From Salinisphaera sp. Q1T1-3 (GTDB lineage Bacteria > Pseudomonadota > Gammaproteobacteria > Nevskiales > Salinisphaeraceae): a DNA stretch of 47,818 bases. The translations under genes and the position numbers were made by a program. Of this stretch, positions 5,045 through 37,194 are shown piece after piece. The first letter of the stretch is position 1; the number at the start of each line of letters is the position of its first letter. The stretch spans positions 1 to 47,818 of the forward strand of contig NZ_QZWD01000023.1 of NCBI RefSeq assembly GCF_003602005.1. The letters are read 5' to 3'. Below the pieces are notes generated by a model. It saw nothing but the letters and a program-made list of their open reading frames with translations, was not told the origin of the DNA and ran no database searches.

Positions 5045-5638
5045 ATGACATCGCGTTGCGCGACCGTCGAACGCCGCACGGCCGAAACCGCCATCCATCT
5101 GAGCCTGGATCTCGACGGCTCGGGCGCGTTTTCCGCCAAAACCGGCGTCGGTTTCTTCGAACACATGCTCCACCAGGTCGCCCGCCATGGCCTGATCGAT
5201 ATCGATGTCAGCGCCGAGGGCGATTTACACATCGACGATCATCATACGGTCGAGGACATCGGGATCACGCTCGGCAACGCCCTGCGTGAAGCATTGGGCG
5301 ACAAGCGCGGCATCATGCGCTATGGCCATGCCTATGTGCCGCTCGACGAAGCGCTGTCGCGCGTGGTCATCGATTTCTCGGGCCGACCGGGGCTGCATTT
5401 CCGGGCTGATTTCACCGCCGAGAAGATCGGCACCTTCGATACCGAACTGGTCCGTGAGTTCTTTGGCGGCGTTGCGGCCGGTGCTGCGATGACGCTACAT
5501 ATGGACAATCTCGCCGGTGGTAACGCGCACCATATTGCCGAGACGCTGTTCAAGGCCTTCGGGCGTGCGCTGCGCAGCGCCGTCGCACGCGATCCGCGTG
5601 CTGCCGAAGCCCTGCCTTCCACTAAAGAAAGCCTCTAG
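5045..5638 (+). CDS. hisB: Imidazoleglycerol-phosphate dehydratase
   Basis: Dehydrates imidazole glycerol phosphate to imidazole acetol phosphate in histidine synthesis. At 197 residues it is the monofunctional enzyme, without the N-terminal histidinol-phosphatase of the E. coli fusion. The Mn-binding His clusters are present: [13 protein letters not shown] and [10 protein letters not shown]. The frame stays open upstream to 4937, but homology starts at [15 protein letters not shown], so the ATG at 5045 is chosen; its Shine-Dalgarno is weak. It is the first gene of hisB-hisH-hisA-hisF. Confidence 0.95.
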
Positions 5639-34151: not shown

Positions 34152-34180
34152 TTGGCCTCGATCGGCGCGCCGCGTATAGT
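34152..34180 (+). promoter_or_regulatory. Promoter of tRNA-Ile2
   Basis: TTGGCC (34152-34157), a 17-bp spacer and TATAGT (34175-34180). The tRNA begins 17 nt downstream of the -10, leaving a 5' leader of about 10 nt to be trimmed by RNase P. Confidence 0.65.
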
Positions 34181-34787: not shown

Positions 34788-35393
34788 TTACGGCTCACGC
34801 CGATATTGCCAGAGCGTTGCCGGGGGCCAGTTGCGCTGAATGCGCCGCCAGCGCGTGGCGCTGTATCCCCATCGCTCGAGCCGATGTCGGCGTACCGGCG
34901 AGCCCGGGAGATAGGTGATCTGGGTGAAACAGGCGCTCGACGCGGCGTGGGTGAAACAGCCGTCTAGCACGGCCCGCTGGTCCGGTGTATCGAAATTGAG
35001 AATCGGCAGCGTGGACAGGATCGCACCGACGTGCTCGTGTCCGCGGCGGCGGAGCAAACGCGCGATCGTGGGCGCCAGCGCGCGTGCATCAAGGCAGAGC
35101 ATGCCCGCCGGGCCGAAGCGCCGGCACAATCTGGCATGCAGGATGTGATCGGCCTCGACTGCGATCAGGCGATTCCGATCGAGGCCCGCGGCCAACAACG
35201 TTGCCGTGATCGGACCGGTGCCGGCGCCGAGTTCGACGATGAGGCCATCCGGCGCCGCTGTCGCAGCGTCGACGAATGCCGCACCGACGGCGGCACTGCT
35301 CGGTGCCCAGGTCGCGATCTGGCGCGGCTTGGTCAACCAAAGTCGCCAGAGCGTCGTGAAATCGGACAACGAGGGAGCGGTTCGCGTATTCAT
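34788..35393 (-). CDS. PmtA-like SAM-dependent phospholipid/aminolipid N-methyltransferase
   Basis: Class I SAM methyltransferase of 201 residues, closest in appearance to the rhizobial PmtA family that methylates phosphatidylethanolamine. Motif I is VELGAGTGPITATLL (about 53-67), the acidic loop is AVEADHIL, then LDARAL, and the post-I segment ILSTLPILNF resembles the S-x-LP motif of PmtA. There is no signal peptide; a peripheral membrane role is expected. It is divergent from an OlsB-like acyltransferase across a 142-bp gap with Pho-box-like repeats. That context makes ornithine lipid (OlsG-type methylation) an attractive substrate. KsgA-like rRNA methylation is less likely. Confidence 0.65.
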   Translation of the reverse strand: MNTRTAPSLSDFTTLWRLWLTKPRQIATWAPSSAAVGAAFVDAATAAPDGLIVELGAGTGPITATLLAAGLDRNRLIAVEADHILHARLCRRFGPAGMLCLDARALAPTIARLLRRRGHEHVGAILSTLPILNFDTPDQRAVLDGCFTHAASSACFTQITYLPGSPVRRHRLERWGYSATRWRRIQRNWPPATLWQYRREP

Positions 35394-35415
35394 GGCATCA
35401 GCTAACCGCGGCGAC

Positions 35416-35433
35416 GTGACCGGTCGATGACAA
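35416..35433 (-). promoter_or_regulatory. Pho-box-like repeat facing the PmtA-like gene
   Basis: On the minus strand the sequence is TTGTCAT-CGAC-CGGTCAC. It matches the 7-4-7 PhoB box (two CTGTCAY units with a 4-bp spacer) at 12 of 14 unit positions. TTAGCT lies exactly 10 bp further on, where PhoB promoters place the -10, although this hexamer is weak; the ATG follows after 6 nt. Confidence 0.55.
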
Positions 35434-35450
35434 TCGCCGGCATGCGGCAG

Positions 35451-35490
35451 GCGTCATGAACCGTTCACGGCGGCGTCATCGGACCATCAT
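35451..35490 (+). promoter_or_regulatory. Array of four Pho-box-like units facing olsB
   Basis: Four 7-bp units with an exact 11-bp period: GCGTCAT (35451), CGTTCAC (35462), GCGTCAT (35473), CCATCAT (35484). All four contain TCA at the same place, and each matches CTGTCAY at 5 of 7 positions. CACAAT (35501-35506), a 4/6 match to the -10, begins 10 bp after the last unit, the spacing used at PhoB-activated promoters. This indicates likely control by phosphate starvation. Confidence 0.6.
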
Positions 35491-35535
35491 GCGTCCTGAC
35501 CACAATCGGCGGCAGTTCAACCCGCGGAGATCGCC

Positions 35536-36336
35536 ATGTCCGCCGTATTACCGCTACTGGATCGATTGCACCGCACCGGCCGTTTCGCCTACGGCTTCGC
35601 CCAGACCGATGCCGACCTCGAGGACAGTCTCGCCCTGCGGCATCGCGTGTTCGTCTCGGAAATGGGCGCTCAAGCCCACGGCGGGCCGAACCGTGAAACC
35701 GACGCGCTGGATGCGTATTGCCTGCACGTGATCGTGCGCGATGCCCATACCAGGGAAATGGTCGCCAGTACCCGCGTGCTCACGCACGAGGCGGCAATCG
35801 CGGCCGGCGGCTTCTACTCGGCCCACGAGTTCGATATCGATCGGGTACTGGCCTGCCCTGGCCGCTTTCTCGAGATCGGGCGCACGTGCGTCGCCGCCGA
35901 ACATCGCCACGGCGGCGCCATCACGGCGCTGTGGTCGGGCCTTGCCGAGCTGGTGCGCAGCGATCATTACGATCATTTGATCGGCTGCGCGAGTATCGAT
36001 CTCCGGGATGGCCTCGGCCACGCGCATGCGATCTGTCGACGCATCCACGCACAGGCCGCCAGCGATGCCACCCGACGCGTACGACCGTATCGACAGCTGC
36101 CGCCTGCCGCCGAGGCACTGCCGGGCTCTGTTTGCCTGCCGCCTTTGATCAAGGCATATCTGCGTATTGGCGCGCGGGTCGGTGGGCCACCCTGTCACGA
36201 TCCGGATTTCAACGTCGCCGATGTCTTCATGCATCTCGATCTCGGCGCGCTGACGCCCCGCTATGCCCGGCATTTTCTGGGCGCGCCGAAAGACATGGCC
36301 ACGCCCGGTCGGCGGCTGGCGCGCGTTGCGTTATAA
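35536..36336 (+). CDS. olsB: OlsB-like ornithine N-acyltransferase (COG3176, GNAT fold)
   Basis: Probable acyl-ACP-dependent acyltransferase forming lyso-ornithine lipid from ornithine and a 3-hydroxyacyl chain. The 266-residue protein has the family marks: LRHRVFVSEMGA near the N-terminus, HEFDIDRVL, FLEIGRTCV, ALWSGLAELV, LIGCASIDL, LPPLIKAYLRIGARVGGPP and the C-terminal RYARHFLG. CGGAGA precedes the ATG at good spacing. The second acyltransferase OlsA is not in the window. Some COG3176 proteins have other amine acceptors, so the substrate is an inference. uppP follows after 66 nt. Confidence 0.8.
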   Translation: MSAVLPLLDRLHRTGRFAYGFAQTDADLEDSLALRHRVFVSEMGAQAHGGPNRETDALDAYCLHVIVRDAHTREMVASTRVLTHEAAIAAGGFYSAHEFDIDRVLACPGRFLEIGRTCVAAEHRHGGAITALWSGLAELVRSDHYDHLIGCASIDLRDGLGHAHAICRRIHAQAASDATRRVRPYRQLPPAAEALPGSVCLPPLIKAYLRIGARVGGPPCHDPDFNVADVFMHLDLGALTPRYARHFLGAPKDMATPGRRLARVAL

Positions 36337-36402
36337 AGACAGCGGCCGCGGCCTGGCCACGCCCTGTAAGCTGTGCCCTTTTATCAAAGGGCAAAGGACG
36401 AC

Positions 36403-37194
36403 GTGGGCGATCTGATCAACGTGGTGCTGCTGGGCATCATCGAAGGCATTACAGAATTTCTGCCGATCTCAAGTACGGGTCATCTGCTGATCGCTGAGCG
36501 CTGGCTGGGCCAGCGCTCGGATCTGTTCAATATCGTGATCCAGGCCGGCGCCATCCTGGCGGTGTGCCTGATCTATCGGGCGCGGCTGGTACAACTGGCC
36601 ACCGGCTGGCGTGACCCCGGGGTGCGCGATTACCTGGCCAAGCTGGCCACGGCATTTCTGATCACGGCAGTTCTGGGGCTGATCGCGGTCAAGACCGGCT
36701 TCCAGCTGCCCACGGAAATCCACGGCGTGGCCTGGGCATTGATCATCGGCGGCATCTGGATGATCGGCGCCGAACAGATCGCCGCCCGGCGCCCCGAGTC
36801 GGCCCGCGTGACCTGGACGGTCGCTATCCTGGTCGGCCTGGCGCAGATGGTCGCCGGGCTGTTTCCGGGCACCTCACGTTCCGGAGCGACGATCTTCGTC
36901 GCACTACTGGCCGGCACCAATAATCGTAGTGCGGCCACCGAGTTCGCTTTTCTGGTGGGCATCCCGACGATGTTCGCGGCCAGCGGTTACGAGCTGCTCA
37001 AGCAACTGCATGCGCCGCATGCCGCCGCTCATGTGGACTGGACCGCGGTGAGCGTCGGTTTCATCGTCTCGACCATCGTGGCGTTTGTTGCCGTGAAATG
37101 GTTGCTGACGTTCATCCAGAGCCATCGATTCACGGCATTTGCGATCTATCGCATCATCTTCGGTGCGGCACTGTTGCTCTGGCTCGGCGCCTGA
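36403..37194 (+). CDS. uppP: Undecaprenyl-diphosphatase UppP (BacA)
   Basis: Integral-membrane enzyme that dephosphorylates undecaprenyl pyrophosphate to recycle the lipid carrier of cell-wall synthesis; overexpression of the family gives bacitracin resistance. The 263-residue protein has the two signature motifs EGITEFLPISSTGH and PGTSRSGATI and about seven hydrophobic segments. The GTG at 36403 gives the usual N-terminus (GDLINVVLLGIIEG) and follows AAAGGA; a GTG at 36373 is less likely. TGTAAGCT at 36365-36372 may be a -10. It may be co-transcribed with olsB. Confidence 0.95.
   Translation: MGDLINVVLLGIIEGITEFLPISSTGHLLIAERWLGQRSDLFNIVIQAGAILAVCLIYRARLVQLATGWRDPGVRDYLAKLATAFLITAVLGLIAVKTGFQLPTEIHGVAWALIIGGIWMIGAEQIAARRPESARVTWTVAILVGLAQMVAGLFPGTSRSGATIFVALLAGTNNRSAATEFAFLVGIPTMFAASGYELLKQLHAPHAAAHVDWTAVSVGFIVSTIVAFVAVKWLLTFIQSHRFTAFAIYRIIFGAALLLWLGA

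Follow-up and report, generated by a model that had tools for sequence, protein, structure and literature searches.

Why should a PmtA-like N-methyltransferase gene and an OlsB-like acyltransferase gene lie back to back in the genome of a salt-loving Salinisphaera, with apparent phosphate-regulatory sites between them? The window (the whole stretch analysed) comprised 47,818 nt of Salinisphaera sp. Q1T1-3. A preliminary description, made from the sequence alone, had read the two genes as a possible methylated ornithine-lipid module under shared Pho control, in which an OlsG-like enzyme would methylate the ornithine headgroup. Both open reading frames were confirmed. The minus-strand gene (34788–35393) encodes a 201-aa putative lipid N-methyltransferase (here called MT), assigned to the Sinorhizobium-type PmtA family by family models, groove residues, tree and fold, and the plus-strand gene (35536–36336) encodes a 266-aa OlsB-family N-acyltransferase for the first step of ornithine/amino-lipid synthesis. 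Their divergent start sites are separated by a gap of 142 bp (35394–35535). An undecaprenyl-diphosphatase gene (uppP/bacA, 36373–37194) begins 36 bp past olsB, is found downstream of olsB at at least four of the seven loci with the pair, and might use the Pho promoter of olsB. An argument from sigma-70 promoters and terminators was dropped, because the one promoter-like site (34152–34180, outside the gap) and the one terminator-like site were at chance level. The names rnt, argG, opgGH, selO, mscL and pstS-like (L193) were assigned by eye from translations, without a family search.

The acyltransferase matched Acetyltransf_5 (PF13444, 97.5 bits) and two OlsB models (138.5 and 130.1 bits; strict cut-offs of 320 and 350 missed), whose names we take to indicate Brucella- and Rhodobacter-type proteins. 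The match to the OlsB model was near full length (residues 11–247 of 266) and, with PF13444, supports its identity as OlsB at the family level. OlsB proteins of the genus are divergent, the window protein being 56% identical to that of genome G001 and 48% to those of G008 and G012. Such divergence, and scores under the curated cut-offs, would suit an OlsB that loads another amino acid (glutamine or lysine), with either that lipid or an unrelated small amine as the substrate of MT and the pairing being regulatory only. A glutamine lipid has reportedly been found. A lysine lipid is known, according to the available text of PMC11828411. We regard this explanation as improbable, since the OlsBs of the genus branch together in an OlsB tree of 15 rows (94/88, not starred; G006 and G011 left out), match OlsBs across the order that adjoin OlsA, and nothing points to another amino acid. 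A candidate OlsA (L067) was found in the window genome on an unlinked contig (G000:C33). The OlsA models were the top NCBIfam matches of this protein (106.2 and 97.3 bits; cut-off 300 missed), and it is 68–70% identical to the OlsAs that adjoin olsB in G008, G011 and G012, suggesting that it is OlsA.

MT had no Pfam match at 1e-3. It scored 75.6 bits with the PmtA_Agro model (cut-off 250) and 71.7 bits with the OlsG model (cut-off 350), both far under the cut-offs, and the other nine Salinisphaera MTs, also under the cut-offs, scored 78.7–98.8 and 68.8–104.8 bits, respectively. PmtA ranked above OlsG for six of these nine and for the window protein, and OlsG above PmtA for three; HMM scores cannot separate the two assignments for the Salinisphaera MTs. 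The PmtA cut-off belongs to an Agrobacterium-like equivalog, so that missing it bars MT from the equivalog and not from the wider family. The OlsG cut-off was reached by no row scanned, planctomycete OlsG-type rows scoring 226 and 229. Methyltransferases of the wider PmtA/OlsG family are common in the class, where the OlsG model was matched in 200 of 369 genomes, many weakly and none above the cut-off. Weak Erm/KsgA matches in the SAM-binding half (about 17–30 bits; 17–23 bits for the window MT) would fit an rRNA adenine methylase of KsgA/Erm type lying beside olsB by chance. Family scores and fold make this very unlikely: the ten MTs scored 69–105 bits with the PmtA and OlsG models, in most of them across almost their full length, the fold matched Agrobacterium PmtA (E 1.7e-12) better than KsgA (3.5e-7), the lipid groove is conserved and a Pho box lies upstream of MT. 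Two other candidates were rejected. A BtaB-like role was discarded, BtaA (PF11899) being unmatched in all 14 genomes of the genus, as was a viral origin, a relative being encoded by none of the 71 stretches of viral contigs taken as candidates.

The AlphaFold model of MT had a pLDDT of 92. Among the solved structures searched, PmtA of Agrobacterium tumefaciens (AtPmtA, S-type, PDB 9KO3) was the nearest to MT both by sequence and by fold. The two proteins share the fold, the SAM motif, Y161, I159 and a C-terminal PPAxxWxY, and the helix ahead of the AtPmtA domain has a predicted counterpart at residues 9–21 of the MT model. They differ in that only 28% of residues are identical in the fold alignment and A128 of AtPmtA is T128 in MT, whose groove residues are T128, I159 and Y161. 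The SAM motif ELGAGTG (MT residues 54–60), which follows the pattern E/DXGXGXG, is invariant in all ten Salinisphaera MTs. Tyr occupies position 161 in 109 of 118 rows, all MTs and AtPmtA among them; the six OlsG-type rows have Val there and three rows have Phe. In AtPmtA, Y161 is required for full activity, and Ile159 in place of Phe widens the groove and goes with methylation beyond MMPE, as stated in the available text of PMC12139422. Ile159 was seen in MT, AtPmtA and the OlsG-type proteins of L150 and L151, nearly all other Y161 rows from outside the genus having Phe or Tyr, and across these rows it is no clean mark of PmtA. Planctomycete OlsG and MT belong to a common wider methyltransferase family, and MT scores similarly with the OlsG model (71.7 bits), but the OlsG-type rows carry QLTVMP or QITVMP and PPGG, where MT has QITYLP and PPAT, and they lie on a separate branch.

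A maximum-likelihood tree was built from 75 of the 118 rows, with all Salinisphaera, AtPmtA and OlsG-type rows kept and the remainder thinned at 70% identity. L102, L119 and L130 were taken to be OlsG from the motif, the score (L102, L119) and the neighbours (by Pfam for L119, by eye for the others), and the OlsG-type reference rows do not include S. acidiphila OlsG. The ten Salinisphaera MTs formed a single clade (100/96) on a long private branch (0.71), and the six OlsG-type rows formed a separate clade (100/99). A branch with 100/97 support divided an OlsG side of 11 rows from a side of 64 rows with MT and AtPmtA, the latter a fragment on a long branch. A constrained clade of MT and OlsG was 18.3 log units worse, and its rejection is borderline (AU p 0.053). 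The placement on the AtPmtA side, the retained groove Tyr and the missing OlsG motif speak against the OlsG relationship that had been proposed, at the strength of this borderline test. By these comparisons, which show a PmtA-type groove, MT is probably not OlsG by descent, and its position in the tree, the residues of its groove and the closest solved structure together indicate that it probably belongs with the Sinorhizobium-type phospholipid methyltransferases. To 78 relatives outside the genus, MT has no more than 41% identity in the best segment, and its substrate may therefore have changed.

The regulatory sites suspected between the genes escaped a scan with the E. coli Pho consensus (up to three mismatches), which gave four matches in the window against 2.6 expected, not a significant number. 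By contrast, one run of at least three TCAY units with an 11-bp period was found in the window. In 100 shuffled windows the mean number of such runs was 0.03, and that of runs with four or more units was 0.0. The gap holds two such arrays, one on each strand: a four-unit array upstream of olsB (35451–35490, plus strand, GCGTCAT gaac CGTTCAC ggcg GCGTCAT cgga CCATCAT) and a two-unit box upstream of MT (35416–35433, minus strand, TTGTCAT cgac CGGTCAC). Both align across the seven species with the pair. The exact four-unit TCAY pattern occurs once in the 3.87-Mb genome, before olsB (reversed control, 0). Three-unit KTCAY arrays occur at three sites in the genome (reversed control, 0), namely before olsB, before phoB (L226, G000:C11, 2252–2280) and upstream of a Porin_5 gene that precedes pstS (5517–5545 of the same locus). 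The phoB product matched TIGR02154 with 347 bits. As the two other sites serve phosphate genes, they support the motif.

Comparison across the genus shows that both boxes are conserved. The four-unit pattern was found 12 times in 11 of 14 genomes (reversed control, 0): eight times before olsB, three times beside a sqdB-like gene and once before a pstS-like gene (the latter identified by eye). Eight of the 11 olsB-bearing genomes of the genus have it upstream of olsB. At least two units lie 82–99 bp ahead of olsB in 15 of 18 genes from the genus, family and order, against a background, with the true sites counted, of 41 in 2730 windows 250 bp long; the olsB genes of G011, G012 and G031 have a single unit and no array. 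The two-unit MT box, about 70 bp or less from the start, was found in nine of ten Salinisphaera, including all three in which MT is located away from olsB, and differs by one substitution in G006. Only one of 107 outside relatives has a box of this type, the OlsG-type gene of L152. In G011 and G012 MT is boxed and olsB lacks an array, which assigns the box to MT and makes control of MT independent of that of olsB. No Pho box was found upstream of olsA in the window genome. The predicted shared Pho control of MT and olsB is well supported by these comparisons, and PhoB would presumably bind at the sites between them.

Some further arrays were observed. In G001, where no MT was found, olsB has a four-unit Pho array (L053, 8172–8211). 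In G013 (L202, 1501–1540), G009 (L195) and G010 (L197), the neighbour of a four-unit array is a gene resembling UDP-sulfoquinovose synthase (327 bits, cut-off 575). On the far side of the L202 array are GtrA and metallophosphoesterase genes, and the region is perhaps a sulfolipid/PlcP-like remodelling locus. The window genome's own UDP-sulfoquinovose synthase-like copy (L227) has a two-unit box.

MT was detected (E ≤1e-3) in 10 of 41 genomes searched, the window genome included: 10 of 14 in the genus and none of 27 others of the family and order. OlsB was detected in 36 of the 41 and in all ten MT genomes. Genus genomes G003, G009 and G010 (completeness 100, 87 and 81%) lacked both, and G001 had OlsB only. 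MT and olsB are divergent and adjacent in seven of the ten MT-bearing Salinisphaera; in G008, G011 and G012 MT adjoins a selO-like gene. As to neighbourhoods elsewhere, OlsB was found beside none of 78 named outside relatives of MT (4-kb flanks) and none of 29 outside class-level loci (shorter flanks), and among loci L070–L179 only at Salinisphaera L070, L071 and L161. At the order loci L058–L064 olsB adjoins olsA in seven of seven, with rnt nearby in six and opgH-like genes in some. An intact rnt-olsB-olsA order is found in G008, G011 and G012. Comparison with the window genome shows olsB beside MT, and rnt adjoining olsA on another contig from which olsB is absent. These arrangements are read most simply as a move of olsB from the rnt-olsA locus to a place next to MT.

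What MT methylates is a matter of probability. We give about an even chance to a PhoB-controlled membrane-remodelling pair in which MT most likely methylates phosphatidylethanolamine (PE) to phosphatidylcholine (PC). On a drop in phosphate, PhoB would bind the two divergent arrays between MT and olsB. OlsB would be induced and N-acylate ornithine (or another amino acid), and the unlinked OlsA would finish a phosphorus-free aminolipid. The same signal would induce MT, which as a Sinorhizobium-type lipid N-methyltransferase would most likely convert PE already resident in the membrane to methyl-PE and PC, at no phosphate cost. PE methylation would rebalance packing and charge as the aminolipid and sulfolipid build up. 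Methylation of existing PE consumes no phosphate; the preliminary view that a PmtA would be counter-productive at low phosphate was therefore a weak inference, and less speaks for an ornithine-lipid substrate than had been stated. The OlsB family, the PmtA-like MT and the Pho sites of the proposed module stand; its OlsG relationship is not supported, and its phosphate-waste argument does not hold.

Methylation of an ornithine lipid is a rather less probable alternative. MT would methylate the OlsB/OlsA product, or lyso-ornithine lipid, at the delta nitrogen to give ornithine lipid bearing one to three methyl groups; this OlsG-like function would have arisen independently, from a PmtA ancestor. 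It draws on the Pho box before MT, private to the MTs of this genus apart from the OlsG-type L152, on the long private branch of the MT clade, and on the shift of olsB to MT with olsA left at rnt, against the intact order in G008, G011 and G012. MT is confined to olsB-bearing genomes of the genus, and this tracking of olsB in presence (10/10) and position (7/10) fits an aminolipid substrate better than PE. Against it stand the PmtA-type groove motif and the tree joining MT with AtPmtA (AU p 0.053 for the OlsG clade), the position of MT away from olsB in three species, with MT boxed and olsB without an array in G011 and G012, and the PC reported for S. halophila (69.5% GC) in the available text of PMC11165706. 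The MT-bearing G011 and G012 (69.3% GC over 35 and 32 kb) fit S. halophila by GC content alone. The search for other routes to PC covered Pcs and not the Rhodobacter-type Pmt. Besides the enzymes ranked as PgsA or PssA, the genus has 30 CDP-alcohol transferases; judged by eye, none of them, in G011 and G012 or elsewhere, carries the Pcs motif, and no PC synthase was recognised via NCBIfam, which may lack a Pcs model.

Known systems were compared as well. According to the available text of PMC3972451, A. tumefaciens expresses pmtA constitutively and breaks down PE, MMPE and PC on phosphate limitation; a Pho-induced PE methylase, the reading we prefer for MT, would therefore be unusual. The gene for MT differs in its Pho box and in its partner, olsB. 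Planctomycete OlsG sits with OlsH/OlsI and not with OlsB (available text of PMC12493201; also L119), whereas MT sits with OlsB. Acinetobacter resembles the window genome in having a Pho box before olsB and an unlinked olsA without a box, but no methyltransferase partner is named in the available text of PMC11828411, whose authors argue there against ornithine-lipid methylation in Acinetobacter. The olsBA loci of the order (L058–L064) have OlsB and OlsA relatives and, in six of seven, at least two Pho-like units 82–85 bp before olsB; unlike the window genome, those genomes showed no MT, and their olsB and olsA are still adjacent, with rnt nearby in six of seven. The same available text of PMC11828411 states that olsG occurs only in certain planctomycetes. 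We observed an OlsG-type methyltransferase (TVMP, PPGG; 179–184 bits, OlsG cut-off 350) in three gammaproteobacteria at L150, L151 and L152 (G177, G240 and G289), each with a full OlsB match too (312–341 bits; the G177 copy has an internal stop). The Pho box of L152 (CTGTCAC gatg CTGTCAT) is almost perfect, and no such box was found within 200 bp at L150 and L151.

Papers on OlsG, methylated ornithine lipids, PmtA with a Pho box, and OlsB with PmtA were searched in the open-access literature (most subscription papers lie outside it), and among the matches listed no such pairing was recognised, in agreement with the earlier statement that no described pair of this kind was known. The combination seen here, a PmtA-family enzyme under Pho control and paired with olsB, looks new.

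Remodelling of membranes in response to phosphate is already known to involve ornithine lipids, betaine lipids, glycolipids and sulfolipids. In one genus, a PmtA-family enzyme appears to have entered the Pho regulon, co-occurring with olsB. If MT methylates PE under phosphate scarcity, the rationale for making PC would have undergone an unexplained change. If MT acts on ornithine lipid, this would be a second origin of ornithine-lipid methylation: in this gammaproteobacterial genus a PmtA ancestor may possibly, though we think it the less likely outcome, have given rise to an ornithine-lipid N-methyltransferase separately from planctomycete OlsG. Under PhoB, methylated phosphorus-free lipids would then stand in for PC, and olsB would have moved so as to share a two-way Pho promoter region.
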